Origin: Fulvivirga maritima
Lineage (GTDB): Bacteria > Bacteroidota > Bacteroidia > Cytophagales > Cyclobacteriaceae
DNA length: 64,000 bases
Reading direction: 5' to 3'
NCBI RefSeq assembly: GCF_021389955.1
Contig: NZ_CP089980.1
Coordinates: forward strand, 867,501 to 931,500
A program made the position numbers and the translations under genes. Below, one piece after another: positions 7,630 through 60,419 of the stretch. Under the pieces are notes generated by a model. That model made no database searches. It was not told where the DNA came from and worked only from the letters and a program-made list of their open reading frames with translations. How positions within the stretch are numbered: position 1 is the stretch's first letter; each line of letters opens with the position of its first letter.

Positions 7630-7702
7630 GGTTATTTTCTTTAAATAAAGCTTCCAGCTTAACATCAGATTGCACTATGAAACATATAGATTTTGAGTGT
7701 AA

Positions 7703-7721
7703 GTTGAAAACCTGAACCAAG
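7703..7721 (+). repeat. 19-bp direct repeat, left copy
   Basis: GTTGAAAACCTGAACCAAG occurs here and again at 9376-9394 in the same orientation, bracketing the split membrane-protein gene and its inserted IS1595 element. Confidence 0.6.
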
Positions 7722-8122
7722 TTAGTGATAACTTCCATGATATCTCTGTTCATCAAAATCATAATAAGCAAAAACAGAATTTCCACGCCATCCTACTGCA
7801 CTTATATCTCTAATTTTGCCGCTTTTTGACACAATCCTTATTTCTCTATATCTTACCCCTATCCAAGCTCGTCTATTTTCTTGAGGTATGTTTTGAACAT
7901 CTTTAGTTTCCTGAAACTTAATTAAACTTTCAATTGGTATTGACTTTAATTTTGAATAAGCAACGTTAGTTTCATAAGTGATAATACTATGCATAAGTAT
8001 ATATGTGAAAAATAATGAAGTAACGATTACGAAACCAAAAGCATTTGATTTAACTGTAAAAAATTTTAACCTTATTAAAGTGTAAAAAATACACACTCCA
8101 ACAATTAAATATGTAATTAAAT

Positions 8123-9098: not shown

Positions 9099-9375
9099 AA
9101 TTAAATATACAATTATATCAAATTCCATTTCTATCCCAATAATTGTCATAATAGAGATAATCAAAAAATAGGAGAGTATATAATTAAATAATTTCATCAT
9201 GTATTAGTTTTCCCTGCATAGCCTTTTAAAATCAACGTTTACCGTAAAATAAATGCATTATCCTTTCCGTGTCGACCATAAATATCCTAACCTGAAGATA
9301 GCAAAATTATTCCAGAGGGTTGAAAGCCCTTACACACAGGAGTGTATGTTCAAAACTTACACATGGTAGATCCAT

Positions 9376-9394
9376 GTTGAAAACCTGAACCAAG
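9376..9394 (+). repeat. 19-bp direct repeat, right copy
   Basis: Second exact copy of GTTGAAAACCTGAACCAAG (left copy 7703-7721), sitting between the disrupted gene's promoter side and the terminator of the glycan hydrolase gene. Confidence 0.6.
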
Positions 9395-9406
9395 GTTGTG
9401 AAAACA

Positions 9407-9438
9407 TAAAAAAACAGGCACGCAATGGCCTGTCTTTT
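9407..9438 (-). terminator. intrinsic terminator of the glycan hydrolase gene
   Basis: ACAGGC (9414-9419) pairs with GCCTGT (9428-9433). Read on the minus strand the hairpin is followed by TTTTTTT. It lies just after the stop of the 9461-12772 gene. Confidence 0.75.
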
Positions 9439-9460
9439 CATCTTATAGTTTCATATCTAA

Positions 9461-31256: not shown

Positions 31257-31262
31257 CAACTT

Positions 31263-33365
31263 CTAGTTAGTTACAGGTTTAATCCACTCGCTTAATGGCG
31301 ATCTATATTCTCCTTTATAGGCTTGAACGCGGTATTTATAGATTCGGCCTATCTTATAGTTTCGTTCTACATATTGCGCCTCTTGTGGAGTTATATAATC
31401 CAGCATTCTTAGTGCTCCTTCATCTAATGACCGGTAGAGTATAAAGCCATCTATGTCCTTTACATCATACTTCCATTTTAGGGTTAGCTTGCGATTATCA
31501 AAATCCACTTGATAGGTGATCTTCTTTACTGGTGGTAATATGCCATTATCAGGAATGCTAATGCTATAGGAGGCTGTGTCTGAAGTGAGGCCTGACTGAT
31601 CGACTGACACTATACTATAGATATATTGCACCCCTCCTGCTACCTGTAAATCCTGATACTGAGTAACTCCTTTTTGCAGATGTGACAATAAAACTAACGA
31701 ATCAGTGCCTTGACGGAATAGATTATAACCTTCTAAATCATCATCACTTCCCTCAATCCATGAAAGCGTAACTGTACCTTCTTTATATTTAGGAACTTGT
31801 AGAATAGGTGCCGTTGGTGCTACTACATCTGGCTTGATCACCAATATAGGAGTAGAAAAATCAGAGGCATTAGACCTTCTGTCCACTGCCGCTACCTGAT
31901 AGTAATAATCTTTGGTCAGGTTACGAAGCTGTACTTTCTCGGTAAACATCGTGTCATACACCAGGTTATCATGAGCCTGTACATATTCTCTATCTTTATA
32001 ATAAGATTTAAATACCTTATACCCATCAAAATCTCTTTCTGTATTCTTATTCCAGCGAATAGTGACCTGCCCCGTAGAATCAATCACTCCTTGTAGCCCT
32101 ACAGGTGGCAATGGAGGAATACTGTCTTCAGTTTGTACCAGTAGGGGCATAGATTCTACCATCTCTCCATAGCGAGACTCTGCCCGCACCACATAATAGT
32201 TAGTAGCCATTGGGTTGGGATCACTGTAATAGCGCTCTGAGGCAGGAATAATTTTGTTATGTACATTTTTAAAGGGGCCTTTGCTGGTTACTGCTTGTGC
32301 TATATAAAATCCTTTGATTCTATTTTCGAGGCTATCTGGAAAAAACCAATGAATCTGTGCTTTTCCTGCTCCATCTACCTTGCCACTTTTAATGCCCGGG
32401 ATGGTTCCTATTTTTTGATGAGCCTTACCTGAAACGACATTAGAAGGAGGGCCTGCCTCTCCAAAAGCATTGATTCCTTTGACTCTATAATAATACATCT
32501 TCTCATTTTTTAAAGAGTCCATGTAATACAAATTGTAATCATCCAGACTGGAGTTATTTCTTAACTGCAAAAAGTTAAGTTCATTGAGGCGTTGGTAGTT
32601 TTTACCGTCTTCTGAGCGCTCTATAACATAATAGTTGTAGATGTTTCGATTAAAAAAGCTATTCCAATGTAATCTCACAGAGGCATCACCATAGTCTGCC
32701 TCTAAATCCGCAGGAGTAGGTAATGGCTCTACTTCTGAAGGATTAATGATAATACTCCCTCTTTGAATGCGTAGACTGGGATGTTGATGAGCCAATCTGA
32801 CCCGATAGACATAAGTAACGCCTGGCTCTATATTGTTATCTTCATAATACAACCCTGACGCTTCTGCTACTTCTAAGGATTGATCTGCTGAAGCCAGAGC
32901 AAAGGCAAAACGGTTTTGTTGTTCTGTATTTTTATTTAACAACGCCGCCTGACCAGCATCGCTCTCTTCATCGAGCTGAAAGGATTCTCCATAAAGTGCC
33001 TGTGCTGTAATAGCTGCATATCGGTTTTTCTTGGCTAGTGGTTCCCAGCCAGCTAAAGGTAGAGGTTGTATAGGTGTAGGAGTCAGAATTACTGAATCCT
33101 TGAACATTTGCTCTCCATCACCATCAAAACGATAGCGCACCACCTGATAGCCATATTGATTACCGTAATTCCAGGCAATATAATTGGTAGGTGCCCAGCG
33201 AAGCATCACGCCATCACCAGTAGCTCTGCCTAAAACTTTAACCTCTCCAGCATATTGAGCCTGAACAGTGAAAAATAGGCTTAAAAAAATGAGCGTTAAA
33301 AAAAGTCTTTGAACCGATTGTTGCATAAAAGAAAGGGATAGAGGAAGTTTAATCACTTCCTCCAT
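31263..33365 (-). CDS. multi-fibronectin type III exported protein
   Basis: 700 aa from ATG 33365, or 687 from ATG 33326, which begins directly at the signal peptide (MQQSVQRLFLTLIFLSLFFTVQAQ). Five clear FN3 domains occupy roughly residues 215-700, each with the W...D..GY pattern (VRLHWNSFFNRNIYNYYVIERS, VTIRWNKNTERDFDGYKVFKS, VTLSWIEGSDDDLEGYNLFRQ, LTLKWKYDVKDIDGFILYRS). An N-terminal FN3-like region precedes them. No sorting tail. Probably a periplasmic or surface scaffold. Lies 10 bp from the lipoprotein and 6 bp from the SprB-like gene. Confidence 0.85.
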   Translation of the reverse strand: MEEVIKLPLSLSFMQQSVQRLFLTLIFLSLFFTVQAQYAGEVKVLGRATGDGVMLRWAPTNYIAWNYGNQYGYQVVRYRFDGDGEQMFKDSVILTPTPIQPLPLAGWEPLAKKNRYAAITAQALYGESFQLDEESDAGQAALLNKNTEQQNRFAFALASADQSLEVAEASGLYYEDNNIEPGVTYVYRVRLAHQHPSLRIQRGSIIINPSEVEPLPTPADLEADYGDASVRLHWNSFFNRNIYNYYVIERSEDGKNYQRLNELNFLQLRNNSSLDDYNLYYMDSLKNEKMYYYRVKGINAFGEAGPPSNVVSGKAHQKIGTIPGIKSGKVDGAGKAQIHWFFPDSLENRIKGFYIAQAVTSKGPFKNVHNKIIPASERYYSDPNPMATNYYVVRAESRYGEMVESMPLLVQTEDSIPPLPPVGLQGVIDSTGQVTIRWNKNTERDFDGYKVFKSYYKDREYVQAHDNLVYDTMFTEKVQLRNLTKDYYYQVAAVDRRSNASDFSTPILVIKPDVVAPTAPILQVPKYKEGTVTLSWIEGSDDDLEGYNLFRQGTDSLVLLSHLQKGVTQYQDLQVAGGVQYIYSIVSVDQSGLTSDTASYSISIPDNGILPPVKKITYQVDFDNRKLTLKWKYDVKDIDGFILYRSLDEGALRMLDYITPQEAQYVERNYKIGRIYKYRVQAYKGEYRSPLSEWIKPVTN

Positions 33366-39312: not shown

Positions 39313-40125
39313 TTAAAAGTCTCTACATAATAGCTCCACCAAAGATTTTACCCGATCTAACAGTACTGATAAATCTGCATTACTAACCTTATAATTTCTC
39401 TTATACCTTGCATCAGAATAAGCATTTTGTAAAAGCTTGAATAGCCGTTTATCTTGTTCAGAATCTTGAGGAAAGATCTGTTGGGTCTTGCTGGTAATCA
39501 AGTATGATAACCGAATTAGTCTACCCAGATTATGCGTACGACGATGATAGCCTACACCTGACTTAAGTAATGCCGTTAGTCCTTGCTCCGTAGATTGATG
39601 TAGCATAAATACAGCTAAAGTGTTTTGCTGACATAAGCTACAAAGCTCTGCCGTCTTTAAGAATTCTTTGGCCTTAGATAGACCCAACTTATAAAATGCG
39701 TTGATTTCATTTTCATCGGTACACTTTGAATTATGTGTATTATTAAGTTGGGGGTAGTACTGATTATAAATGAGTTCCCCTTGCTGGCAAACCTTTACAG
39801 CAAAGGTATACCCTGCCTGTAGCCACTGCTCAAAAGTATGAGTTTGTAGTACTATACAGGTTATTGAAACACTAGGCTTACAATGTGTTTCAATAATATC
39901 TTCCCACTCATACGTGCTTTTACCGTCGTTTTCAGGAATTAAGATTAAAACAAAATATTCCTTTGAAAAGCTGGAAGCTATCCTGGAAGAACTAAAAATG
40001 GTCTGACTCTTCTGCTCATGCGCTAAACCACCTAACCAATAAACAGCATCCGGCTGTACCACTTGTGATATATATGCAATTAGCGGTTGACAATCAGAAC
40101 AATATTTTAACTCTCCCTCGCTCAT
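39313..40125 (-). CDS. HEPN-domain protein with degenerate nucleotidyltransferase-like N-terminus
   Basis: 270 aa. Residues ~25-130 have a minimal nucleotidyltransferase-like layout (DAVYWLGGLAHE ... EYFVLILIPEN), but the catalytic GS/DxD residues are not evident. Residues ~150-265 are a HEPN-type helical bundle (FYKLGLSKAKEFLKTAELC, LAVFMLHQSTEQGLTALLK, YHRRTHNLGRLIRLS, YSDARYKRNY). HEPN proteins are often RNases in toxin-antitoxin or defence loci. The RRTHNL segment resembles a HEPN RxxxxH site but is not exact. It overlaps the preceding gene by ATGA and sits opposite an XRE regulator. Confidence 0.75.
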   Translation of the reverse strand: MSEGELKYCSDCQPLIAYISQVVQPDAVYWLGGLAHEQKSQTIFSSSRIASSFSKEYFVLILIPENDGKSTYEWEDIIETHCKPSVSITCIVLQTHTFEQWLQAGYTFAVKVCQQGELIYNQYYPQLNNTHNSKCTDENEINAFYKLGLSKAKEFLKTAELCSLCQQNTLAVFMLHQSTEQGLTALLKSGVGYHRRTHNLGRLIRLSYLITSKTQQIFPQDSEQDKRLFKLLQNAYSDARYKRNYKVSNADLSVLLDRVKSLVELLCRDF

Positions 40126-40502
40126 TTGTCATATGATAATGAAGCCAGCTTGGTTGCCTTCTCCTTATCCTGTTGCTGCCTTCTGCCTTTGAGCGCTTGA
40201 AAAATAGTTATAGAAGCTTCACTAGTTGAATATTCAGTCTTGCTCTCTTCTAATTTATTGACTTGATCAGTAAGCATATCTAAGAACCAATTATAAGCAT
40301 CGTCATCTGGGCGGATGCCTACTAGAGCAAAAATTGCAGACTCAAGACTTATAGGCCATCCCGATGGATCAAAGCCAACATTCTCTAAGTCACTAAGAAA
40401 CCAATGAATATTTAGCTGCTTTTGGATCAAACAAAGAATAAGATCTTCTTCTACCTCCATACGAAAGAATGGATATTGCGGACGTTTTAGGTGTAGTTTC
40501 AT
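40122..40502 (-). CDS. small hypothetical protein coupled to the HEPN gene
   Basis: 126 aa from ATG 40502 (KLHLKRPQYPFFRMEVEED). The longer reading from 40544 crosses the promoter and is unlikely. The product is acidic and helical (ESAIFALVGIRPDDDAYNWFLDMLTDQVNKLEES) with no recognised domain. Its stop overlaps the HEPN start, so the two are made together. It could be a partner or antitoxin for the HEPN protein, but nothing in the sequence proves that. Confidence 0.7.
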   Translation of the reverse strand: MKLHLKRPQYPFFRMEVEEDLILCLIQKQLNIHWFLSDLENVGFDPSGWPISLESAIFALVGIRPDDDAYNWFLDMLTDQVNKLEESKTEYSTSEASITIFQALKGRRQQQDKEKATKLASLSYDK

Positions 40503-40536
40503 AAGCAAATGGTTAGTTATATAAAGATAATAAAAT

Positions 40537-40552
40537 AGAGCCAATTGGCTCT
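40537..40552. promoter_or_regulatory. 16-bp palindromic operator between the HEPN pair and the XRE gene
   Basis: AGAGCCAATTGGCTCT is a perfect palindrome. A third half-site (GGCTCT) lies at 40581-40586, across the start of the XRE gene. The palindrome covers the -33 region of a plausible XRE promoter whose -7 box is TATTTTTG (40567-40574, fits TAnnTTTG). On the other strand TATCTTTA lies between it and the HEPN-pair start. The layout predicts autoregulation and control of both operons by the XRE protein. Confidence 0.7.
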
Positions 40553-41158: not shown

Positions 41159-41265
41159 AGCCCTGTGGCTATTTCGGTCGGACTATGCCAGTTGTTTCGG
41201 TCAAACTATGCCAGTGATTTCGGTGTATCTATGCCACTTTAAGAGTTTCGTAATTTTAGTAAATA

Positions 41266-42000
41266 TTAATGTTTCAACATACCTTTTCTCAAAGATTCTC
41301 CTTTGAGATCTATTCTATGAGAAGAGTTAACGAGCCTGTCTAATATGGCATCAGCAATAGTGCCTTCACCAATAATATCATACCAGGCTGATACTGGTAT
41401 TTGAGAGGAGATTATAGTTGAAGTTTTTCCATGACGATCATCGATAATATCCATAAGTACTTCTCTTGCAATATTGTCCATGCTTTGTAAACCAAAATCA
41501 TCTAGTATTAAGAGTTGGGCAGAGGTAATTCTTTTAAGTTCTTTGATATAGGTGCCATCTACTTTGGCGAGTTTCATTTTGTTGAACAGGCGAGCTGTTA
41601 CCTGATAGATGGTGCTATAGCCCATCAGACAAGCTTGTCTGCCTATGGCCTGACTCATAAAGCTTTTGCCTACTCCTGAAGCACCTGTAATAATGATGTT
41701 TTCACTTTGCTTGATGAACTGTAAGGAGGACAACCTGTTGAACATGTTTTTATCCAGATTCCTATTTTCAGAGAAGATTATTTCATCCATGTCTGCCTGC
41801 TGCTTGAAGGTGGCCTTTTTCATCAGCCGTGTAATCTTCTTATTCTGCCTGTCTTCCCATTCACTTTCAGTGAGTAAGGCCAGATATTCATCTGGGGTGC
41901 ATTTTTGATAAGCATTGCTGCTGAGTTGTTGTCTGTGCAGTTCAGCCATCGCAGATAGCCTCATGGATTTTAGTTTTTCTATTGTTTGATTATTGTTCAT
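41266..42000 (-). CDS. istB: IS21-family ATP-binding helper protein IstB
   Basis: 244-aa AAA+ helper ATPase that selects target DNA for IstA. Walker A GASGVGKS, Walker B LLILDDFGLQ, and the usual C-terminus RIDLKGESLRK. Its start lies 11 bp after the istA stop. Intact, unlike the slipped copy at 58804. Confidence 0.95.
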   Translation of the reverse strand: MNNNQTIEKLKSMRLSAMAELHRQQLSSNAYQKCTPDEYLALLTESEWEDRQNKKITRLMKKATFKQQADMDEIIFSENRNLDKNMFNRLSSLQFIKQSENIIITGASGVGKSFMSQAIGRQACLMGYSTIYQVTARLFNKMKLAKVDGTYIKELKRITSAQLLILDDFGLQSMDNIAREVLMDIIDDRHGKTSTIISSQIPVSAWYDIIGEGTIADAILDRLVNSSHRIDLKGESLRKGMLKH

Positions 42001-42011
42001 AAAATTATTGT

Positions 42012-43556
42012 TTACTGGTAATGGTTAGCCCCTCTGATGTTTTTGTGAGAAGGGATATGTGATTGATGATTTTCTTGTTCTATTTCATGCTCGTCCATAT
42101 TATTACTGAGTATATTTTTGAGCCTTTGATAGCTGTATGTGTCATGATGAACAGCCCTTAGGCAGGCTTTATCTACACGCTCATGGCCATAGTTTTTGGC
42201 CAGCATTAAAATGCCCATGGCTCTTTTGTAGTTAATCTCAGGATAGTCACCCTGCAGGAATAAACCTGTCATAAACAGCTTTACATTTACACCTATTTTA
42301 CCTCCCTGATCAGAAAAATACTGGGGACTCCATTGGCTATAAGCACGGTGTGTACTGGAGAGGTGATTCTTATTAGTAATATAAGCACCCTTACTCATTA
42401 CTCTATTATGCAGCGCAATGCGTTGGCTTTTGTAGTATACTTCAACATGTTTGGAGGTGTACTGTATCTGAGTTTGAGAGCCAATGTAGCGATAGGGAAC
42501 GCTATAATAAGTCTTGTCAGCCGAGAAGTATACATATCCCATCTTCTGTACCTTGGCTCTGGCGTATTCTTTAACCTGATAAGTACTTTGGGGTAAGCTT
42601 TTTAGAAGGGATGATTCTACGGATTGGAACAGCTCTTTTCTGGAAGCTTCTTTTCTTTGAAAAAGCACATTATTATAGCCCTTAAGATGATGCTGGATCT
42701 CTTCATTAAGCGCTTCAATAGAGAAGAAAGTCATTTTACGCATAGGGTAATAAATGCGCTGATAGGCCAGCTGAACAGCATTTTCTACCAGTGCTTTATC
42801 TTGTGGGGCATAACTACGTGTAGGGTTTATGGCACACCCATAGTGATGAGCGAAGTCTTTGAAAGTTTTATTAATAACCGCCTCATACTTACTGGATCGG
42901 GTAACTGCCGATTTAAGGTTGTCTGACACGATGGCTACAGGTACTCCTCCAAAGAAGCGGAGTGCATTATTGAGGCATTGAATAAAGTCCTCCCTTTTTT
43001 GACTTTTACATGCTTCCACATAAGTATACTGACTAAAAGGAAGTGTGGCCACAAAAACTTCTACCTGGCTTACTTCTCCTGTAGATGGATCTACTACTTC
43101 TAATTTCTTACCTGCAAAATCAACATAAAGCTCTTTTCCTGCCTTGTGCTCTAACTTCATAGAACCTTTGGCCTGTTTGTACTTACGCTGATAATGGGTG
43201 GTAAACTGAGTGTAACTGTAACTATCCTGAGTTTGCTCAGCATACAACTGGTAGTGGTACTGAAGGGTAAAGCCAGGGTGATGACGCTGTGGGTGCATGG
43301 TCTCAAAAAAACGCATTAAAACCGCATAACGATCATTGTTTATGGTTGTCTTAGACGAAAATAGCTCTTCTAAAGCATCAGTATCCAACTGTAGCAATGC
43401 TTCCATGGGCTGATCGCTTGACTGAAGTGATCGCAAATAATGGTTAACAGTGTTTCTATTCACACCCAGGGTCAAAGCAATTTGCCGATTGCTCAGCCCT
43501 CTCAAATGAAGATTGATAATTTGTTTTAAGTCCATTATGTCAAGTTTATTCGCCAT
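42012..43556 (-). CDS. istA: IS21-family transposase IstA
   Basis: 514 aa. N-terminal helix-turn-helix (LRGLSNRQIALTLGVNRNTVNHYLR), then an rve integrase core with acids in VDFAGKKLEV, IVSDNLKSAV and LVENAVQLAYQRIYYP, then a basic C-terminal domain (YYSVPYRYIGSQTQIQY). Intact reading frame, forming an operon with istB. Confidence 0.95.
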   Translation of the reverse strand: MANKLDIMDLKQIINLHLRGLSNRQIALTLGVNRNTVNHYLRSLQSSDQPMEALLQLDTDALEELFSSKTTINNDRYAVLMRFFETMHPQRHHPGFTLQYHYQLYAEQTQDSYSYTQFTTHYQRKYKQAKGSMKLEHKAGKELYVDFAGKKLEVVDPSTGEVSQVEVFVATLPFSQYTYVEACKSQKREDFIQCLNNALRFFGGVPVAIVSDNLKSAVTRSSKYEAVINKTFKDFAHHYGCAINPTRSYAPQDKALVENAVQLAYQRIYYPMRKMTFFSIEALNEEIQHHLKGYNNVLFQRKEASRKELFQSVESSLLKSLPQSTYQVKEYARAKVQKMGYVYFSADKTYYSVPYRYIGSQTQIQYTSKHVEVYYKSQRIALHNRVMSKGAYITNKNHLSSTHRAYSQWSPQYFSDQGGKIGVNVKLFMTGLFLQGDYPEINYKRAMGILMLAKNYGHERVDKACLRAVHHDTYSYQRLKNILSNNMDEHEIEQENHQSHIPSHKNIRGANHYQ

Positions 43557-43741
43557 CCTTTTTTTGGGGCGATATTAACAATCAATGAACTCTTAAAGTG
43601 GCATAAATCGAACCGTAATAGGTATCAATTATTATAATATGGTGGCACAAATCGAACCGTAATCAAATAGATACACTGGCACGGTTTGAACCGAAATCAC
43701 TGGCATATACCTAACCGAAATGGGTGGCATAATTCAAACCG

Positions 43742-44605
43742 TTGTATCCACCCTGCCAGAAAAAGCAGCTAGTTACGGAAATAAAAAGGGAATTTAATTA
43801 CGCGATCAGCATCAGCAGGGCGTGCCGGGTTTTAAATCTTGCCAAATCCGTCTATTATTATTCATCTATTAAAAATGATGAGCCTATTATGGCTGCTTTA
43901 AAAGAAAAAGCAGAGCAGTTTCCCAGAGAAGGTTTTTGGAAAGCTTTCAGGCGACTTCGCAATGAGGGGCATCAATGGAATCATAAGAAAGTACATAGAG
44001 TCTATAAATCCATGGGATTAAGTATGCGTAGAAAGACAAAAAAAAGACTGCCCGCAAGAGTGAAAGAGCCTTTGGAAATACCGCCTGTAATCAATCATAC
44101 CTGGTCTATTGACTTTATGAGTGATGCTCTATTGAACGGCAGAAAGTTTCGATCTTTCAATGTAATGGATGATTTTAACAGGGAAGCGCTACATATAGAG
44201 ATTGACTATTCTCTTAAGAGCAATAAAATAGTATGGGTTTTAAACCATTTAATTAAACGTCGAGGCAAACCTGAGCGGATCAGGATGGATAATGGCCCTG
44301 AATTTATTGCAACATTAACTAAGGAATGGAGCCAAATGCACGAAATCGACTTCATTTATATACAACCAGGTAAGCCCACTCAAAATGCCTACATAGAAAG
44401 GCTGAATGGCACCTTCAGAAGAAATGTATTGGATGTGTGTCTTTTTGATGATATAAATGAAGTGCGTGAAGCTACTGAAAAGTGGATGAATGACTATAAC
44501 TTTTTCAGGCCTCATGAAAGTCTGAATGACTTGAGTCCGGTGCTGTATGCACAGAGGGCGTTAACAGTGGATAACTCTATCGAGTTACCCACAATTAACA
44601 CCTGA
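43742..44605 (+). CDS. IS3-family transposase OrfB (separated from OrfA by IS21)
   Basis: Catalytic half of the outer IS3 element: D in WSIDFMSD, D in RMDNGPEF, E in [10 protein letters not shown], and the C-terminal [18 protein letters not shown]. The first codons as read (MYPPCQ) come from the IS21 end. True OrfB sequence begins after the duplication at 43751. With OrfA cut off upstream, the element should be inactive. Confidence 0.88.
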
Positions 44606-44832: not shown

Positions 44833-46971
44833 CTATATTTCGTTTTCACATAAGTTTATTTTCGTTAGCAGGTCAAATACCCCCTCAAAATCAAACATTT
44901 TCTCTCTTAAAAGATAAGCCTGATACTCTAAGGGCAAATATTTTCCCCACTTATAAAAGCCAATTAATCCCTCATTTGCCTTTAGCTCATCAATGATATA
45001 ATCATGAATTTCATCCTGTGTTAGCTTTATAACCTGAGCCAAAACTTCCCCAAACCTATCCAATGTTTCCGGAACCTCAATTAAGCTTTTGCTATCATCA
45101 ATGTGCAGTTCACAGTTAAAACATTTAAAAAGAAAAACGATTGTATTATTGATTTCAGAACCAGTGAATGTATAAACCTCTAGTTTTCCTTCTTTCTCGA
45201 TCACTGGACGATCATATTCAAAATCCTTAATATTGAACCCATTGAAATCGGCCCTTAACTTATCTATTTCGTCGTGACTTTCTACATTGAGATACTCATA
45301 TCCTTCTGAATTCATCAAGATTCTTAGCATCTCTGCACGAACTCTTTTATGAATACTTCCAGTTCTACCAAAAAACTTAGGTTTCTTCCCATCTTTAGCT
45401 GGAACTACAATAATCTTGGCCCCTTTGATATCTACATCCTTTATCTTCCAAATAGAAGCTGCAAGCAGAATATTCTCATCTTTTTTAACTTGAGGGGAGT
45501 AAGGAATATTTCCTATCACCTTTCCTGAGTGAGTAACTTTAAAGTTAAGCTCTGTTGAAAAGACACTATAAAACTCCCTTGAGTTAACTATAAATTCTCC
45601 AGTCACTCCGATTATCAACTCTCTCTCAAAAGATTCCAGGTAATCTGATTTTATGGATTGATTAATTAAATCATCTATATCTTCACTAGAAATATGCTCA
45701 AAAGTGGGGTTGCTTCTTAAGTGATCATTAAGTTCTTTCTTAGAACATCCAGACAACTGCTTAACGATGGACAACATTTGATGAAAGAGTATATCATAAG
45801 GCCTCTGAATGATCTTTATTGGCTCAAGAAAGTCTTCTTGATACAATTTCCAACATGCTAGTGACTGCAATAGACTCCATTCATTTGTAGCATATAGACT
45901 TAAAAGGCTCATTTCCCCTTCTCTTCTACCACTACGCCCAACTCTCTGTACTAGTGATGCAACGGAGTGAGTCGAATCAACTTGAACCACCTTATCAATT
46001 GTTCCGATATCTATACCAAGCTCAAGGGTTGAAGTACATGTAATACAAAAATTGAAATGCTCTTTCTCTTTGGCAAAGCGCTCGATACTTTCACGTATTT
46101 CTTTGTCTACTGATGAATGATGTGCAAAGTAGTTCCTATGCCCACCAACCTTAGATGAGATTTTCAAAAGCTTGACCGCAATTTCCTCTACTCTACCCCG
46201 ACTATTAGGGAATATTAATGCCTTGCTGACACTTGTTTCTTTGTAAAGTTCTTTCAATAATGAAAGGGGAAGCTCCACGGATTCTGATTTGAAATATTTG
46301 AATGAAACCTCCGTGTCCTTTTTTGTCCTATCAATTAGTATTTTGGTACGATCTACATCCCCAATCAGAAGTTTTGCAGAATAATAGTTTTCATCCCCTA
46401 TAGTTGCCGACAAGCCTATGGTTATAATCCTTTCTTTGTTCAATCGCTGAATCCTCGACAACAAAGACATTAGTTGTAGACCTCTATCAACACCTAAAAA
46501 GGAATGAATTTCATCAATCACTATATAATGCAAATTCCCCAGTAAAGAGCTGACATTGTATGGCGCATTTACAAACATGGCTTCTATTGACTCCGGAGTA
46601 ATCAACAATACTCCATTAGGATTCTTTAGCAGTTGATTTTTCAAAGACTTTTTGGCTTCACCATGCCATTTTGTAACCGATATCTCGAGATTTTCACAAA
46701 GTTCCTCTATTCTAAAAAATTGATCATTGATCAAAGCTATCAATGGTGAGATATAGAGTATCTGAACACCAGGTCTATTAAAATCTACCTTAGAAAGAAT
46801 GGGAAGAAATGCTGCCTCTGTTTTACCTGAAGATGTTCTAGAGGCGAGAACATAATTATTATCAGTCTCAATAATTCGTGAAATTGCCGCTGCTTGAATA
46901 GGACGCAAATTTTCCCAGCGCTTATTACGAATGAATTTGCGAATCGGTTCAGAAAGTAGTTGATAAGACAT
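44833..46971 (-). CDS. Lhr-like DEAD/DEAH helicase of the TerB-ATPase-helicase unit
   Basis: 712-aa superfamily II helicase. Motifs: I RTSSGKT (45-51), II DEIH (153-156), III SAT (188-190), VI QRVGRSGR (342-349), followed by a ~350-residue C-terminal part with no named domain. The layout is that of Lhr-type and BrxHI helicases of BREX-like defence loci. It is the last gene of a three-gene unit and its ATG overlaps the ATPase stop by one base (TAATG), so the three products are made together. Predicted to move along or remodel DNA for the unit; cytosolic. Confidence 0.88.
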   Translation of the reverse strand: MSYQLLSEPIRKFIRNKRWENLRPIQAAAISRIIETDNNYVLASRTSSGKTEAAFLPILSKVDFNRPGVQILYISPLIALINDQFFRIEELCENLEISVTKWHGEAKKSLKNQLLKNPNGVLLITPESIEAMFVNAPYNVSSLLGNLHYIVIDEIHSFLGVDRGLQLMSLLSRIQRLNKERIITIGLSATIGDENYYSAKLLIGDVDRTKILIDRTKKDTEVSFKYFKSESVELPLSLLKELYKETSVSKALIFPNSRGRVEEIAVKLLKISSKVGGHRNYFAHHSSVDKEIRESIERFAKEKEHFNFCITCTSTLELGIDIGTIDKVVQVDSTHSVASLVQRVGRSGRREGEMSLLSLYATNEWSLLQSLACWKLYQEDFLEPIKIIQRPYDILFHQMLSIVKQLSGCSKKELNDHLRSNPTFEHISSEDIDDLINQSIKSDYLESFERELIIGVTGEFIVNSREFYSVFSTELNFKVTHSGKVIGNIPYSPQVKKDENILLAASIWKIKDVDIKGAKIIVVPAKDGKKPKFFGRTGSIHKRVRAEMLRILMNSEGYEYLNVESHDEIDKLRADFNGFNIKDFEYDRPVIEKEGKLEVYTFTGSEINNTIVFLFKCFNCELHIDDSKSLIEVPETLDRFGEVLAQVIKLTQDEIHDYIIDELKANEGLIGFYKWGKYLPLEYQAYLLREKMFDFEGVFDLLTKINLCENEI

Positions 46972-48284
46972 TAAAGCTCTTCTATATTATCGACAGAACT
47001 TTCATTTGGCCTTTCATCATTAATTTCAATTTCTGAAATCAAGGAAGCTTTATTTGCACCAGGATTCTGTCTAAGAATACTGAGAATGTTAAGAAAATCC
47101 CTTATTACTTCTCTTGGAGTTAGAAATTCGTCAGCTCCAGGCTTGTTAAACATTTCTTCCATGAATTGATGGATATCAGAATCATTAATATCAATGTTAA
47201 CTCCATAGTTAATATCAAAGATCCCTTTCAGCTTATTCAGTAGGACAAAAATCTCATTATGATCCAGCGGTGTAAGTCTAAGAACGGGTTGCGCCAAATC
47301 TCGGTAGGTTGATGTCTCATACTTGTTTGTTTCTAACCTTGTTTTAAGAGCATCATAACTAAAAAGCCCTCTTCTTGAGTTTTCTAAAAACTCTTTGGTT
47401 CCAGCTATATTGATGAACAGATTTGAGACTTTCCCCTGAAAACAATCATTGAAAATGGTCAGAATCTTTTCGTAATTCTTTTCCCTAGTTGTTGATGTTG
47501 AAATTTTATAAAGATTAATTGCCTCATCTAGATTAATCATAAATCCACTATACCCCATGCTAACAAACAGCCTACTGAAGTTCTTTAGCATGTCATAATA
47601 GTTAATATCATTTACTATCTCACGAACACCTAAATCCTGACGGGCTTCCGTCTTTGTAGTATATTCTCCCTTAAGCCACTTCAGCGCATTTCGCCTAAGA
47701 ATGTCATCATCTTTTATATAACCTTCATAGTATTTTATAACTACTACACCAAAGTCAAACCCCCCAGATTCAGTAACCTCTTTTACGGTCTCCATTATAG
47801 AGGTTTGTATCAAGCCGAAATGCTTCTCATCTCTTATTTCTGTTATTGGGATGTTATTATCAATTGCGACTTTGGATACAACTTGCTCTATCCATTTATC
47901 AAGCAAAGTGGGCAAAGCTCCGCCCTCAGGCTTTGTCTGTATCGCTATATTATCCATGATGGAGCTATATAGCACCAGGGCTTTACCATCATTAGAATAA
48001 AGTCGATTATCAGGAGTAAAATCAGCATTCGTGACTACAAATTTTTGCTTGATAGCAACCGTATTAATTAAATGCAACATGAAACTCTTTCCAGACCCAA
48101 AGTCCCCAATCCAGAATTTCATCATGCTATGACCATTCTTTACATCATCCAATGCTTCTGTAAGAGCTTCTATTTCTAATGCTCGACCCACAGTAATGTG
48201 TTGAACTCCAATTCTGGGAACTACACCACCTGAAAGTGAATTAATAATTGCTGTTGCTTCTTTTGATTTAATCTTTAGTGACAT
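46971..48284 (-). CDS. DUF2791 (BrxD-like) P-loop ATPase
   Basis: 437 aa. The start follows the DUF2791 plan closely: IINSLSGGVVPRIGVQHITVGRALEIEAL, Walker A GDFGSGKS (60-67), TNADFTPDNRLYSNDGKAL, GGALPTLLDKWI, and Walker B-like MINLDEA near residue 250. DUF2791 proteins are known as the ATP-binding BrxD of BREX variants, usually paired with a BrxHI-type helicase, as here. No BrxC, PglZ or methyltransferase is present. It lies 2 bp after the TerB gene. Confidence 0.88.
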   Translation of the reverse strand: MSLKIKSKEATAIINSLSGGVVPRIGVQHITVGRALEIEALTEALDDVKNGHSMMKFWIGDFGSGKSFMLHLINTVAIKQKFVVTNADFTPDNRLYSNDGKALVLYSSIMDNIAIQTKPEGGALPTLLDKWIEQVVSKVAIDNNIPITEIRDEKHFGLIQTSIMETVKEVTESGGFDFGVVVIKYYEGYIKDDDILRRNALKWLKGEYTTKTEARQDLGVREIVNDINYYDMLKNFSRLFVSMGYSGFMINLDEAINLYKISTSTTREKNYEKILTIFNDCFQGKVSNLFINIAGTKEFLENSRRGLFSYDALKTRLETNKYETSTYRDLAQPVLRLTPLDHNEIFVLLNKLKGIFDINYGVNIDINDSDIHQFMEEMFNKPGADEFLTPREVIRDFLNILSILRQNPGANKASLISEIEINDERPNESSVDNIEEL

Positions 48285-48286
48285 AC

Positions 48287-50527
48287 TTACTCTAATATTT
48301 CCTCGTAATAAGACTGCTCAATTATGTATGAATCATCCTCTTCTTCAATTAAAGGCTCACCCTCCAAAAACCCTTCGCAAGCCTCGTTGATAGCGTCAAT
48401 TAATTGATTCTTAAATAATGAATTTTGAGATGCATACACATCTACCTCTGATTGCCGAATGATAAAGTCATTTTCTACAATCTTCTTAATGAGTCCTTCA
48501 TGTATAGACGACAGTCCAATCTCCTTTTTGAAAAGGCTATTTGATGTCGATTCAGGTTCATTTGACTTATCTGGAGTTTCGATCAGTTTTAGCTCCTGAC
48601 TTGATTCATCTTCTGTCTCTAGGTATTTGTTCAATAAACACACGGTTCCTTCGTGCTTCTTTCTTACACTATCTATTTCAGACTTGTCCAAACTGATCTT
48701 CTTCCTCTTTGGAGTGAATAAGTCATTTACTGCCTCCAGAGATTCATCAAGCATCATAGACTTGGCTAATTCTCTTAAGATTGATTCATAATCGATAAGT
48801 TTATCACTATCGGAAATTATCTTCTTTAGCTGATTTGGGATATCCTTCTTCTTGTATGATGAAATTGTATTGTAGTAAACATATTTTGTGTAATTTCTCA
48901 AGGCCTCAATGTGGTCATGTTTTGTGAGAAATTTGGCCGCCTCTAAAAATATTGCTTCTATTTTGGAATTCTTTAGATTACTCATTTCTAAATAATCAAG
49001 CTTATCCTTAAAAACAGTAAGATCCTGTATGTTAAAAGTAAGTTTTGCTAATTCCAATTCGGCACCCCATCTATTAACATTCAGAGCATTAAGTTCAATC
49101 TGTGTATCTATATTTGGGGAAGCAATGTTACCTGTAACATCTTGCATAGATAAATAAAGTTGCTCGCCTAAGGTATTTTCTATTAACTTAATAGTTGCCT
49201 GGGAGTAAGGATGAAATTCAGGTATATTTAATAGCCTTTTATGTCCATAGCACTCCCGGACCATATTTTCTATCTTCTTGAATATTGTTAAATAAAAGCT
49301 CTCTTGAAACTGATTAAATGCCGATTTTCGATCAAATTCTTCAGAGTAATTTGAAAACTTAAATTTTTCAATACTGATAACTTTATCAAAAATACTTTTC
49401 AACACTTCATCAATTTCTTTTTTCTCATTGATCCGATTAAGAACAGATATATAACTCTCAATGATTGCAATACAACAACCTTCTATAGAGTTAAAAGTAT
49501 TTGATGGGTTATTGAATTTATTGAGCCACTTTACTTCTCTCGGCTTTAATCCTAGCTTTTTTTTGTATACATTACCCAATTTATACATATCTGGGTTATA
49601 ATCAGAATACCCATTATCATAAAGATAATTTGGATCCTCATATTGCTCTAGCTTATCCTTAGCCTTCCGAGTTTCCAGTTTTCCCCATTCCCTTCTTAAA
49701 GAACCTAAAGAATAAAACCTTGTCTTTGGACAGATCTTTCCTATTAATTTAAACTGACTTTCTAACAAGTCTATATCGGAATGAGACTGATACTCATTCA
49801 AAAAATCAAAGTACAGCACAAAAGCATAGTTTGTATTACCTTCAATATCAACGAATTGACCTTTTATCACCTCGCCTTTAAAATATTCGTAGAATTCCTT
49901 CTGAGCTTTTGTGGCATGCTCAATCTCCTCAAATGAATAAACATAGGAATCACTCCAGTGAGGCACTTTGGAAAAATTAATTTTATTTCTATTAACATCC
50001 TTTGATTCAGCTGAACCTAAATAAAAGTCAGAAACATTTGTCCCATCGACATTTTGGCTCTTGCATTTCACTCTCCCAATCTCTACTATTTCCCTCTGAT
50101 TATTCAATAAGAAAAACGCATGTTTCCCGAGTTCTGGGCAGATCTTTTCTAGTAGCTTAAACTGCCTTTCTAACTGCTTTAAATCTTTATGATCTTTGTA
50201 ACTGTCATATAAATCGTAAAGCAAAATAAAGGCATAGTTTGAATTGCTTTCGATATCAATAAATTGGCCATTGAGCACTGCCCTTCTTAGATATTGGTAA
50301 AATTTCTTTTGTTCAGCAGTTGCCTCCTTGATTACATCACAGTTGTTAATATTTTTCTTCCTCCAATGTGGCACTTTAGATTTACTCTTATAATCTATAG
50401 CTAAATCCAATTGCTCTTTATTCACGTCAATAATGGACGAATCTGATCCAATCTTCCCCTTACTTATTTTTTTGACATGAGTTTTAGACTGTTGATTATA
50501 ACTTTTCCGATGATCATCTGCTGCCAT
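48287..50527 (-). CDS. TerB-N/TerB-C protein, first gene of the putative defence unit
   Basis: 746 aa, no signal peptide. Two similar N-terminal modules, about residues 52-155 and 185-290, share the plan VPHW....ATaeQKkFYqYfr..v.nGqFvDIE.NsNYAFvLlyD and ...RQFKLLEKICP, which fits a duplicated TerB-N domain. A helical middle region follows. The last ~130 residues (SLFKKEIGLSSIHEGLIKKIV ... INEACEGFLEGEPLIEEEDDSYIIEQSYY) fit TerB-C. Such proteins are known to neighbour a P-loop ATPase and an SF2 helicase in predicted DNA-processing or defence loci. Role of the duplicated module is unknown. Confidence 0.82.
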   Translation of the reverse strand: MAADDHRKSYNQQSKTHVKKISKGKIGSDSSIIDVNKEQLDLAIDYKSKSKVPHWRKKNINNCDVIKEATAEQKKFYQYLRRAVLNGQFIDIESNSNYAFILLYDLYDSYKDHKDLKQLERQFKLLEKICPELGKHAFFLLNNQREIVEIGRVKCKSQNVDGTNVSDFYLGSAESKDVNRNKINFSKVPHWSDSYVYSFEEIEHATKAQKEFYEYFKGEVIKGQFVDIEGNTNYAFVLYFDFLNEYQSHSDIDLLESQFKLIGKICPKTRFYSLGSLRREWGKLETRKAKDKLEQYEDPNYLYDNGYSDYNPDMYKLGNVYKKKLGLKPREVKWLNKFNNPSNTFNSIEGCCIAIIESYISVLNRINEKKEIDEVLKSIFDKVISIEKFKFSNYSEEFDRKSAFNQFQESFYLTIFKKIENMVRECYGHKRLLNIPEFHPYSQATIKLIENTLGEQLYLSMQDVTGNIASPNIDTQIELNALNVNRWGAELELAKLTFNIQDLTVFKDKLDYLEMSNLKNSKIEAIFLEAAKFLTKHDHIEALRNYTKYVYYNTISSYKKKDIPNQLKKIISDSDKLIDYESILRELAKSMMLDESLEAVNDLFTPKRKKISLDKSEIDSVRKKHEGTVCLLNKYLETEDESSQELKLIETPDKSNEPESTSNSLFKKEIGLSSIHEGLIKKIVENDFIIRQSEVDVYASQNSLFKNQLIDAINEACEGFLEGEPLIEEEDDSYIIEQSYYEEILE

Positions 50528-50537
50528 AGAGACCTTC

Positions 50538-50939
50538 TTAGATTTTCTTTTTTCTTCGGATAACTATAATTATCACCCCAACTATCAGCAGTATATATAT
50601 TGCAGCTCTATTTGCAGCTCTTTCCTTTTTTGGAGGTTCTTTAATATCAACAATTGGAAGTCTCTTTAAATACCTGATCGCAGAAAAACCTTCAATATTC
50701 TTATACCTTAGGTGAATCCAATATTGAGTAGTATCACTTAAACATTCTACTGTATCTCCTTTTGGAATAATAGTAACCGATTTATAAGAGGTTCCTGGAC
50801 CACTTCTTAAATTCAAGTCAACTGTAGTTATGTACAGATTATCCGCTTGCCCGTTAAACCCACAAAGTATAAACGCCTGAATTATTAGAATACCAATTAT
50901 CAAGCCTTTCGACTTGAATAATAAAAATTTGATAATCAT
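50538..50939 (-). CDS. bacterial SH3-domain membrane protein
   Basis: 133 aa from ATG 50939. Signal-like hydrophobic segment (LIIGILIIQAFILCGF), an SH3b domain (VDLNLRSGPGTSYKSVTIIPKGDTVECL ... WIHLRYKNIEGFSAIRYLKRL), and a C-terminal membrane helix with a basic tail (AIYILLIVGVIIIVIRRKKK). It lies 10 bp upstream of the TerB gene on the same strand and is probably co-transcribed. An envelope sensor or anchor is possible but is inference. Confidence 0.82.
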   Translation of the reverse strand: MIIKFLLFKSKGLIIGILIIQAFILCGFNGQADNLYITTVDLNLRSGPGTSYKSVTIIPKGDTVECLSDTTQYWIHLRYKNIEGFSAIRYLKRLPIVDIKEPPKKERAANRAAIYILLIVGVIIIVIRRKKKI

Positions 50940-51373: not shown

Positions 51374-52597
51374 CTACCTAAGCTTCTCCCTCAACCCCGC
51401 CATATCCCTACTGATCTTTTGCTTTATAACTTTAGCATAAATTTGTGTGGTACTCAATTTCGTGTGGCCAAGCATTTCACTCACGGTTTCTATGGGGATA
51501 TCATTTGCTAAGGTTATAGTAGTTGCAAAGGTGTGCCTGGCAGTGTGGAAGGTGAGATTTTTATTAATTCCGCAAAGTACAGCCAGTTCCTTTAAATATT
51601 GATTAGTCTTTTGATTGGAATATACTGGCAGGCATTTGCCTTCACCTTTCATAGGCAAATCATTGCGGTGTTTATACTTCTTTAAAATACTTAATGCTTT
51701 TGGCAAAAGCGGTACTGAAAATAGCTTATCAGACTTTTGGCGTCTACCTGTAATCCACAATTCATTATCCACTCCTTTAATAATATTATCTGTCGATAAA
51801 TTCAAGGTATCTATATATGACAACCCGGTATAACAGGCAAAAACAAACACATCTCTTACTAACACCAACCTATCTTTAGTCAGCTTTACACTTTCTACAT
51901 GCTGCAGTTCATCATGATTTAAGTAGCATCTTTCTGTCTTCCTAAATTTCAGTTGGTATTTAATAAACGGGTTTTTAGTTATCGACTCTTCCCGTAAGGC
52001 CAGATTCATCATTTTACACAACCTTTCCATATGCTTCATTGTGCCATTCTGCGTACAGGGTAAGTGCGATTGCAAAGGATTATTTCTGACATACCTTTCA
52101 AAGGATTTAATAAAACCATAATTCAACTCTTCCAGGTAGATATCCTTTACTCTAAGTCTGGATTTAAGAAATCTACGAATATACCTTTCAGTACTCCGAT
52201 AGTTCTTCATAGTGCCTTCCTTAAGCTCATAGCTCATTTCCCGATTATGATATTCTACAAGTTGAAGTAAGGTATTACGCTGCTGATCCTGCCCGGTATA
52301 CCTGTTTTTAATGGCATCTGCTGTAATTATCTTTCGCCCCTTTTCCAGCTCTTCTATACATTCATATAATCTATTACGCAGGGTACCTAAATAGCTATTT
52401 AAAATATCGCTCCCATTGCCAGATTTACGCACTCGGGACTTCACAGCATCCCAATCTTCCAGATGTACCTTGAGCTTGATAGACATATCCACAGAGTGTC
52501 CATTAACCGTAATACGCACATAAATAGGCACCTGACCGCTTATTTTCTTATACTTCTTAACATAAAAAGAAAAACCAAATGTTGACTGACTCCTCAT
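51374..52597 (-). CDS. tyrosine recombinase (phage/CTn-type integrase)
   Basis: 407 aa: an Arm-type N-terminal domain (TFGFSFYVKKYKKISGQVPIYVRITVNG), a SAM-like core-binding domain (~120-210) and the catalytic domain. HTARHTF (~350), GHTKLSTTQIYAKV and Tyr ~387 are the H-x-x-R, H and nucleophile motifs. At the first catalytic Arg position it has Ser (CYTGLSYIDT, ~256), as in IntDOT-type Bacteroidetes integrases. It points away from a tRNA-3'-end-like repeat at 52876, and the stretch between them carries repeated AAAAGGGCACA blocks, like an att site with arm sites. Confidence 0.93.
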   Translation of the reverse strand: MRSQSTFGFSFYVKKYKKISGQVPIYVRITVNGHSVDMSIKLKVHLEDWDAVKSRVRKSGNGSDILNSYLGTLRNRLYECIEELEKGRKIITADAIKNRYTGQDQQRNTLLQLVEYHNREMSYELKEGTMKNYRSTERYIRRFLKSRLRVKDIYLEELNYGFIKSFERYVRNNPLQSHLPCTQNGTMKHMERLCKMMNLALREESITKNPFIKYQLKFRKTERCYLNHDELQHVESVKLTKDRLVLVRDVFVFACYTGLSYIDTLNLSTDNIIKGVDNELWITGRRQKSDKLFSVPLLPKALSILKKYKHRNDLPMKGEGKCLPVYSNQKTNQYLKELAVLCGINKNLTFHTARHTFATTITLANDIPIETVSEMLGHTKLSTTQIYAKVIKQKISRDMAGLREKLR

Positions 52598-56719: not shown

Positions 56720-57246
56720 GCGGACAGAGATGAGCTAACACTCCCACTCTTTATGCTGATAGATGTTGAATTTAAATTATTACCTTTCCATCGTTGGTTA
56801 ATGACAAATACACAAAATTATAATGATTATCCGTAATTACCCATAATGTAAAAAAAGGATTAAATTAGTGCATGGATATATTCAGTTTCACTACCCACTT
56901 CAGTGATGAACAATCATGCAGGGAGCATTTTAAAGGAGAACGTGACAAGTTAGGAGTTATACGTCACCGTTGCGGTCATGATCAGCATTATTGGATAAAA
57001 AGCCGATGGAGCTATGAGTGTAAAGCTTGCCGAAGTAGAACTTCTTTACGCATGGATACCACGGTTTGAATTATGCCACCCATTTCGGTAAGGTATATGC
57101 CAGTGCTTTCGGTTCAAACCGTGCCAGTGTATCTACTTGATTACGGTTCGATTTGTGCCTCCATATTATAATAATTGATACCTATTACGGTTCGATTTAT
57201 GCCACTTTAAGAGTTCATTGATTGTTAATATCGCCCCCAAAAAAGG

Positions 57247-58792
57247 ATGGCGAATAAACTTGACATAATGGACTTAAAACAAATTATCAATCTTCATTTG
57301 AGAGGGTTGAGCAATCGGCAAATTGCTTTGACCCTGGGTGTGAATAGAAACACGGTTAACCATTATTTGCGATCACTTCAGTCAAGCGACCAGCCCATGG
57401 AAGCATTGCTCCAGTTGGATACTGATGCCTTAGAAGAACTGTTTTCGTCTAAGACAACCATAAACAATGATCGTTATGCGGTTTTAATGCGTTTTTTTGA
57501 GACCATGCACCCACAGCGTCATCACCCAGGCTTTACCCTTCAGTACCACTACCAGTTGTATGCCGAGCAAACTCAGGATAGTTATAGTTACACTCAGTTT
57601 ACCACCCATTATCAGCGTAAGTACAAACAGGCCAAAGGTTCTATGAAGTTAGAGCACAAGGCAGGAAAAGAGCTCTATGTTGATTTTGCAGGTAAGAAAT
57701 TAGAAGTGGTAGATCCATCTACAGGAGAAGTAAGCCAGGTAGAAGTTTTTTGTGGCCACACTTCCTTTTAGTCAGTATACTTATGTGGAAGCCTGTAAAA
57801 GTCAAAAAAGGGAGGACTTTATTCAATGCCTCAATAATGCACTCCGCTTCTTTGGAGGAGTACCTGTAGCTATCGTGTCAGACAACCTTAAATCGGCAGT
57901 TACCCGATCCAGCAAGTATGAGGCGGTTATTAATAAGACCTTCAAAGACTTCGCTCATCACTATGGGTGTGCCATAAACCCTACACGTAGTTATGCCCCA
58001 CAAGATAAAGCACTGGTAGAAAATGCTGTTCAGCTGGCCTATCAGCGCATTTATTACCCTATGCGTAAAATGACTTTCTTCTCTATTGAAGCGCTTAATG
58101 AAGAGATCCAGCATCATCTTAAGGGCTATAATAATGTGCTTTTTCAAAGAAAAGAAGCTTCCAGAAAAGAGCTGTTCCAATCCGTAGAATCATCCCTTCT
58201 AAAAAGCTTACCCCAAAGTACTTATCAGGTTAAAGAATACGCCAGAGCCAAGGTACAGAAGATGGGATATGTGTACTTCTCCGCTGACAAGACTTATTAT
58301 AGCGTTCCCTATCGCTACATTGGCTCTCAAACTCAGATACAGTATACCTCCAAACATGTTGAAGTATACTACAAAAACCAACGCATTGCTCTGCATAATA
58401 GAGTGATGAGTAAGGGGGCTTATATTACTAATAAGAATCACCTCTCCAGTACACACCGTGCTTATAGCCAATGGAGTCCCCAGTATTTTTCTGATCAGGG
58501 AGGTAAAATAGGTGTAAATGTAAAGCTGTTTATGACAGGTTTATTCCTGCAGGGGGACTATCCTGAGATTAACTACAAAAGAGCTATGGGTATTTTAATG
58601 CTGGCCAAAAACTATGGCCATGAGCGTTTAGATAAAGCTTGCCTAAGGGCTGTTCATCATGACACCTACAGCTATCAAAGGCTCAAAAATATACTCAGTA
58701 ATAATATGGACGAGCATGAAATAGAACAAGAAAATCATCAATCACATATCTCTTCTCACAAAAACATCAGAGGGGCTAACCATTACCAGTAA
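57247..58792 (+). pseudogene. istA: IstA transposase, copy B, frameshifted
   Basis: Open from ATG 57247 to ...SQVEVF, then shifted by one extra T in the run at about 57747-57752 (six Ts, five in copy A). The frame resumes as ATLPFSQYTYVEA and continues to 58792. Otherwise matches the intact 514-aa IstA. Inactive. Confidence 0.92.
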
Positions 58793-58803
58793 ACAATAAT
58801 TTT

Positions 58804-59622
58804 ATGAACAATAATCAAACAATAGAAAAACTAAAATCCATGAGGCTATCTGCGATGGCTGAACTGCACAGACAACAACTCAGCAGCAATGCTTATCAAA
58901 AATGTACCCCAGATGAATATCTGGCCTTACTCACTGAAAGTGAATGGGAAGACCGGCAGAATAAGAAGATTACACGGCTGATAAAAAAAGCCACCTTCAA
59001 GCAGCAGGCAGACATGGATGAAATAATCTTCTCTGAAGATAGGAATCTGGATAAAAACATGTTCAACAGGTTGTCCTCCTTACAGTTCATCAAGCAAAGT
59101 GAAAACATCATTATCACAGGTGCTTCAGGAGTCGGCAAAAGCTTTATGAATCAGGCCATAGGCAGACAAGCTTGTCTGATGGGCTACAGCACCATCTATC
59201 AGGTAACAGCTCGCCTATTCAACAAAATGAAACTTGCCAAAGTAGATGGCACCTATATCAAAGAACTCAAAAGAATTACCTCTGCCCAACTCTTAATACT
59301 AGATGATTTTGGTTTACAAAGCATGGACAATATTGCAAGAGAAGTACTTATGGATATTATCGATGATCGTCATGGAAAAACTTCAACTATAATCTCCTCT
59401 CAAATACCAGTATCAGCCTGGTATGATATTATTGGTGAAGGCACTATTGCTGATGCCATATTAGACAGGCTCGTTAACTCTTCTCATAGAATAGATCTCA
59501 AAGGAGAATCTTTTGAGAAAAGGTATGTTGAAACATTAATATTTACTAAAATTACGAAACTCTTAAAGTGGCATAGACACACCGAAATCACTGGCATAGT
59601 CCGACCGAAACAACTGGCATAG
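58804..59622 (+). CDS. istB: IstB helper ATPase, copy B, altered C-terminus
   Basis: Same AAA+ protein as copy A (GASGVGKS, LLILDDFG) to residue ~238. Then an extra T near 59512-59515 changes ...GESLRKGMLKH into GESFEKRYVETLIF..., adding 28 residues read from the IS21 end. Possibly still folded, but without its IstA partner it has no element to mobilise. Confidence 0.88.
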   Translation: MNNNQTIEKLKSMRLSAMAELHRQQLSSNAYQKCTPDEYLALLTESEWEDRQNKKITRLIKKATFKQQADMDEIIFSEDRNLDKNMFNRLSSLQFIKQSENIIITGASGVGKSFMNQAIGRQACLMGYSTIYQVTARLFNKMKLAKVDGTYIKELKRITSAQLLILDDFGLQSMDNIAREVLMDIIDDRHGKTSTIISSQIPVSAWYDIIGEGTIADAILDRLVNSSHRIDLKGESFEKRYVETLIFTKITKLLKWHRHTEITGIVRPKQLA

Positions 59623-60419
59623 TCCGACCGAAATAGCCAACGCAGCGGCACGATCATGCAAGACTCTAATCTTTCCTTTCTGGTTTGGTACAAAACAATG
59701 TTTTTAATGAGTGTTACCAAAAAAGGTTTTTCCAGCAAGGAAATTCAGAAGCAATTGGGATTGAAACGATATGAGCCCGTATGGGCAATGGTTCATAAAC
59801 TGAGAAAAGCCATGGGAAATCGAGATTCCAGATACACTTTAGAGGGAATGATTGAGATGGATGAGGGCTATTTTACAGTGGAATCAACTGAGATCGAGAA
59901 GAATAAAGGGAAAAGAGGTAGAGGAGCGGCAGGAAAACAAAATGTAGCAGTAATGGCTGAATCTACTCCTTTAGAAGACTTGGAAACAGGTAAAAAAGAA
60001 CGCCAATGTCGTTATTTCAAAGCTAAAGTACTTAAAGACCACAGTTCACAGGAAGTAGACCATGTATTACAATCATCCATTGATGAACAAAGTATCGTAT
60101 TTTCAGACCAAAGCACTTCCTATGTTAACATTGCTGATTATATAGAACTTCACATTACTGAGAAATCTAATAAGCAAACCACTAACGAGACGCTAAAATG
60201 GGTACATATCACCATTAGCAATGCCAAAAGAACATTTCTAGGGAACTACCATAAGATTAAAGGAAAGTACCTTCAATTGTATCTCGATGAGTTTGTTTAC
60301 AAACTCAATAGACGATACTTTGGTGATAAGCTCTTTGATAGACTCGTTATAGCTAACATTACAGCATATGACTAATTAGGCCTCCCTTGATAATTGCATA
60401 AATCAAAACAAGATATAAA

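Follow-up and report, generated by a model that had tools for sequence, protein, structure and literature searches.

The DNA analysed here is a 64,000-nt stretch of the Fulvivirga maritima genome (NZ_CP089980.1, positions 867,501-931,500), referred to below as the window and used as the coordinate frame. It contains, at about 912333-918439 of the contig, three tightly spaced open reading frames (ORFs) on the minus strand that almost certainly form a Shango (SngABC) anti-phage operon, a system whose founding paper is reportedly Millman 2022. In the order A-B-C these are sngA (48287..50527, 746 aa), sngB (46971..48284, 437 aa) and sngC (44833..46971, 712 aa). They are preceded by a small gene on the same strand that encodes an SH3 membrane protein (50538..50939 from its ATG, while a TTG start at 50987 is possible). 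In transcription order the SH3 gene and sngA are separated by 10 bp and sngA and sngB by 2 bp, and sngB overlaps sngC by 1 bp, which agrees with the close packing of the three genes pointed out in an earlier sequence-only reading of the window. Promoter and terminator scans gave results no better than shuffled sequences.

The assignment to Shango is based on the family models in PADLOC, which holds one model per gene; SngC is matched at 7.5e-204, SngB at 3.5e-166 and SngA at 4.1e-41. SngA is a TerB-type protein with a TerB_C domain at its C-terminal end (48296..48718, aa 604-744; Pfam 2.8e-18). SngB is a BrxC/BrxD-type ATPase (Pfam BrxC_BrxD 4.9e-143) in which a Walker A motif, GDFGSGKS, can be read. 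SngC is a superfamily 2 (SF2) helicase of the Lhr/BrxHI type, with Pfam matches to DEAD (1e-32), Helicase_C (4.7e-17) and WH_Lhr (0.00011; 22 bits, below the cut-off of 27). The TerB_C domain and the BREX-like nature of the ATPase and helicase had both been recognized in the sequence-only reading and were recovered here. According to the part of PMC10250203 available, a triad of TerB-like protein, ATPase and helicase is anti-phage, plaque assays were done for the Pseudomonas aeruginosa member, and PA14 Shango is active in PAO1. Because this triad is in print, the three-gene core is not new, and the core finding is itself a known system. The possibility of a new three-gene system was rejected since every gene has a Shango model; the earlier suggestion of an undescribed candidate was thus correct in the type of unit but not in its novelty. 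The published anti-phage activity is that of PA14 Shango, and the F. maritima locus is known here from its sequence. The window shares with Shango all three genes, their order, their tight spacing and the PADLOC family models, and differs by the separate upstream gene with SH3 and transmembrane (TM) parts, by a duplicated N domain in SngA, and by the fact that this N domain lies beyond the reach of the Pfam TerB_N model. In a table of PMC10952713, seen in part, a TerB domain is given under both Shango and Bunzi, and the accessible text of PMC12278908 counts SngC, BrxHI, DruE and DpdJ as members of one helicase clade that is potentially distinct.

SngB belongs to the BrxC/D ATPase family and SngC is a BrxHI-like helicase, but a BREX variant was rejected because the BREX models score lower, PglZ is far away and there is a lone BrxC_BrxD gene. 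The PADLOC scores are 436 bits for BrxHI against 677 for SngC, and 150 for BrxD against 552 for SngB, while the NCBIfam BrxD model reaches 153 bits, below its cut-off of 350. In this genome the sole PglZ-domain match is at 497222-497797, about 415 kb from the operon, and BrxC_BrxD occurs once, in sngB itself, leaving no BrxC beside a BrxD; the absence of PglZ and BrxC noted earlier holds in this respect. PglZ matches, which at first suggested BREX, are present in 20 of 20 genomes searched, with a single one in almost all of them and in frames of mostly 515-578 aa; such a pattern would fit PorX of type IX secretion. A search for BrxA in this genome yielded no match, but its controls yielded none either. 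Lhr-type helicases share with SngC the SF2 core and the weak WH_Lhr match. The structures matched by SngC at E up to 1e-20 are 5v9x and 7lhl, labelled ATP-dependent DNA helicase and taken by us to be Lhr, together with YprA (6znp). However, none of the 25 NCBIfam models listed (of 31) reaches its cut-off, and SngC is operonic with SngA and SngB.

The gene arrangement is conserved in relatives. A total of 75 loci was gathered by a SngB scan (63-86% identity) and these are close relatives by construction. SngA adjoins SngB in 74 of the 75, the exception (L082) beginning inside SngB, and SngC is adjacent in 72; it is missing from L073 and L075 and lies 2031 bp away in L040. The neighbourhood survey proposed in the sequence-only reading therefore found co-occurrence to be kept. 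The SngA model matches 8 of 395 genomes of the class, a count that takes in this genome itself and a weak match at 1.6e-4, and within the genus SngB is present in 1 of 15 genomes, the window's own; the operon is therefore considered accessory. In the plasmid database PLSDB, SngB matches 691 of 72,556 records and SngA 3, and in phage records no SngA match was found. Of the records with a SngB match, 449 are plasmids of Klebsiella and 144 of Salmonella, where the rows seen have an identity of about 37%; 541 of the 691 records are typed conjugative. The one enterobacterial record examined, an E. coli plasmid, has the full TerB/ATPase/helicase triad. On two haloarchaeal plasmids (L094, L089) metallophosphoesterase and SMC-family genes come after the triad. 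In L040 the Shango operon holds an insertion: two additional ORFs on the same strand (7575-9591) stand between sngB and sngC. Judged by eye, their products of 196 and 478 aa look like DUF4062 and Schlafen/AlbA-type proteins.

The N-terminal half of the window SngA contains two repeats, at aa 46-153 (50069..50392) and aa 182-290 (49658..49984), with 54 of 135 aligned positions identical. The duplication described in the sequence-only reading is thus real, but as a notable detail it loses weight by being private to this locus. An iterated profile detects the N domain in 56 of 81 SngAs, with 57 copies in total and two copies in the window SngA alone (1 of 56), and in other SngAs no second copy better than E 0.98 appeared at a lax threshold. 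Pfam does not give the repeats the name TerB_N used earlier: its model has no match in the window SngA at E up to 1 and, with the limit at E 0.1, hits no more than one of 76 SngAs, but it is found in 5 of 5 non-Bacteroidota SngAs scanned. Profile-profile comparison with hhalign of the N domain to five true TerB_N domains gave an E value of 8.7e-6 (probability 64%), or 2.5e-4 (43%) with other settings. Because these values are better than those of 11 control profiles (all 0.047 or worse), the comparison supports remote homology, and the TerB-N label appears fair solely at that level.

The AlphaFold2 model of SngA (mean pLDDT 79.5, pTM 0.55) has a winged-helix-like fold at aa 667-746. Fold comparison returned mostly TPR-like and other helical-repeat chains at middling Z, and no TerB structure among the matches listed (best 50). 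The model was barely tested outside residues 206-602, and only its C-terminal winged-helix hint was used. Comparison of a SngA profile with solved structures gave one marginal match (E 0.079), and a sequence search for a solved structure related to SngB gave none at E up to 0.01.

A better lead than the duplicated N domain is the SH3 gene. Its product has a signal-peptide-like start, an SH3_3 domain (50667..50816, aa 58-107; Pfam 4.3e-10), a predicted transmembrane helix (50559..50615; mean hydropathy 2.49 over 19 residues) and an RRKKK tail. In the 149-aa frame the hydrophobic segments cover aa 18-36 and 125-143. Of 72 complete relatives, 11 have a SngA that begins with such a signal-peptide/SH3/TM module as part of the same protein, and in several of these a TM2 domain comes next. 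The SH3 neighbour reported in the sequence-only reading is therefore present, but it is not an unrelated neighbour. With Pfam, SH3_3 is found in 11 of 76 SngAs and TM2 in 8 of 76. A further 33 of the 72 have some other hydrophobic segment whose start falls within residues 1-60; two loci cut by contig ends (L010, L014) and the locus without SngA (L082) were excluded from this set. The same measure gives 21 of 87 for the remaining ORFs of 450-900 aa in these loci, and 0 of 159 for the SngB and SngC proteins. A Persicobacter plasmid homologue (L085), outside the 11, has the same kind of start as judged by eye and hydropathy. Among 12 hand-picked SngAs of other phyla (L086-L097), 9 have an N-terminal hydrophobic segment; that of L089 is TM2 by Pfam, and the start of L094 is nearly identical to it by eye. 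A further locus, L098, is unannotated and was excluded from the anchor count. The kind of membrane module differs (a single segment, TM2 or SH3-TM), but its place at the front of SngA recurs in Bacteroidota, Pseudomonadota, Fusobacteriota and Archaea. In three long SngAs (L011, L076 and L019; 1325, 1115 and 1031 aa) several hundred extra residues, in which no significant Pfam domain was found, separate the membrane module from the N domain.

The SH3 gene in front of the operon, together with the fusion of such a membrane gene to SngA in some relatives, suggests that the membrane may be where this defence acts. We consider it probable that SngA-type proteins dock there, and for the window we lean, by a little, to a Shango operon with an inner-membrane place for its first protein. 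Several observations weigh against this. Neither SH3 nor an N-terminal hydrophobic segment is present in 28 of the 72 complete relatives, and three of the 12 SngAs of other phyla (L087, L093, L096) also have no such segment, so an anchor would be dispensable for some Shangos. In the window SngA itself no hydrophobic segment was found, so that its anchoring rests on a putative partner, and the window lacks the TM2 domain that its nearest fused relatives have. The TM calls are from hydropathy alone, and the fold matches have middling Z. These points would fit an ordinary soluble Shango, whose defence act would involve neither the SH3 gene nor the N-terminal hydrophobic segments, these being incidental or regulatory. 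The relatives without a segment, mostly short Chryseobacterium and Flavobacterium forms, and the segment-free window sngA favour such a system. However, it would not explain why different membrane modules recur at the same SngA end in these four groups, with none in the SngB and SngC proteins, and we consider it unlikely, though not negligible.

The origin of the separate SH3 gene bears on the same question. A search for the SH3 protein in 58 relatives gave its own copy and three weak matches (26-30% identity). On a SngC tree of 73 rows the window is placed beside SH3-fused rows, with SH-aLRT supports of 81 for a group of 8 rows, 93 for 6 of them and 100 for an 11-row set. The plain reading is that the separate gene derives from the fused form, although the supports allow doubt, those of the window clade being below 95, the starred level. 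Moreover, it takes 5 changes on this tree to account for the 11 SH3-fused rows, at least 3 of which changes are forced by starred branches; the label is scattered, and the module therefore seems easily gained or lost. The SH3 gene and sngA are in different frames that overlap by about 18 open codons, and the split may therefore have arisen recently through a frame break, or reflect an error in base calling. The end branch of the window SngC is 0.56, compared to 0.06-0.19 in six SH3-fused relatives, and the window exceeds the median relative in departures from conserved columns. These features are also what a decaying Shango would show, one that no longer protects and that sits, with a broken SH3/sngA frame, a duplicated N domain and a fast SngC, among insertion sequences.

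Such insertion sequences are indeed present. Their ORFs, recognized by eye, flank the operon on both sides, and a tyrosine integrase lies upstream (51374..52597, minus strand; Pfam Phage_integrase 2.3e-17, Arm-DNA-bind_5 7.8e-16), as the sequence-only reading had indicated. One element, which we take to be IS21-like from its two-gene layout, is present in two inverted copies around the operon (41166-43750 and 57053-59639; 97.9% identical over 2587 columns). The copies differ by 52 mismatches and two single-base indels in T runs, which real divergence or base-calling slips would both yield. Against decay, all four frames (SH3 gene, sngA, sngB and sngC) are open, and sngA has its own ATG with AAGAAGG upstream. 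Among columns with 95% conservation, SngB departs from just 6 of 269 (80 others: median 2, maximum 50) and SngC from just 5 of 214 in 71 relatives (others: median 1, maximum 9), while SngA departs at 6 of 34 conserved columns (median of others 0); the changes are mostly conservative. A locus that has lost its function is therefore improbable.

A role in membrane stress or toxic-anion response, with phage defence secondary, can also be considered. The Ter/Tel stress systems, reportedly treated by Anantharaman 2012, share the TerB_C domain with SngA, and the history of the TerB family points in this direction. In addition, TelA occurs in the two relatives without SngC, Tannerella loci from metagenome-assembled genomes (L073:6668-11178, L075:6581-11059) that have a SngA-SngB pair. 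In both loci SngB carries a fused bacterial PH domain (bPH_3) and TelA comes after it (Pfam 1.4e-106 and 2.3e-88), and L073 has a second TerB_C protein upstream. This TelA-linked pair is possibly a Tel-type sister of Shango; it was not found in the 395 class genomes, 7 of which matched, in the ATPase part only. In the window, however, the Pfam TelA model matches neither the operon proteins nor the integrase, and the helicase is present with its SngC score of 7.5e-204. A published Shango triad stops phages (PMC10250203). A primary stress role is thus very improbable.

If the first protein of the operon belongs at the inner membrane, as we favour, a sequence of events can be proposed. The SH3 protein, with its SH3 domain in the periplasm, would hold SngA at the membrane or signal to it. 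SngA, with helical N domains, a helical middle part and a winged-helix-like TerB_C end, could serve as the platform to which the SngB ATPase is recruited and docks. This ATPase would then load or drive the SngC helicase on phage DNA that arrives at the membrane or replicates near it, and the phage might be stopped by unwinding or displacement. Unwinding or displacement is proposed because no nuclease domain was significant by Pfam in the three operon proteins, RNase_T in SngA reaching only E 0.13. A mechanism based on DNA entry or envelope sensing is a tentative proposal that we regard as possible rather than probable. In its widest form, Shango in general would be membrane-docked and the SH3 subset envelope-sensing: a periplasmic SH3 domain would feel the cell wall or the passage of a phage and, via SngA, switch on the ATPase-helicase pair at the site of DNA entry. 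This wider proposal is doubtful.

Two other gene groups in the window may be mentioned. The first, at 39313-40544, consists of a 140-aa gene and, in a 4-bp overlap with it, a gene for a protein of 270 aa with a HEPN domain (Pfam 1.6e-11); the two could be a toxin-antitoxin-like pair. The second is a surface or gliding protein cluster. It comprises a 1362-aa protein (27171-31259), in which SprB repeats are combined with a type IX secretion tail, and next to it an fn3 protein (31263-33365).

No description of an SH3 or membrane part of SngA was found in the literature as far as titles, abstract starts and some passages are concerned, and the accessible parts of PMC10250203, PMC10952713, PMC12278908 and PMC12926258 do not mention it; the novelty of this detail is unproven. 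In a table of the 2026 review PMC12926258, seen in part, Shango is among the systems of unknown mechanism. The recurrent membrane segment of SngA, with a predicted periplasmic SH3 domain in one subset, makes it possible to test, concretely and at little cost, where and when Shango acts. If the wider proposal is true, SngA and SngB would be a reusable membrane relay, which would drive SngC in Shango and have TelA as its partner in the form that has no SngC.

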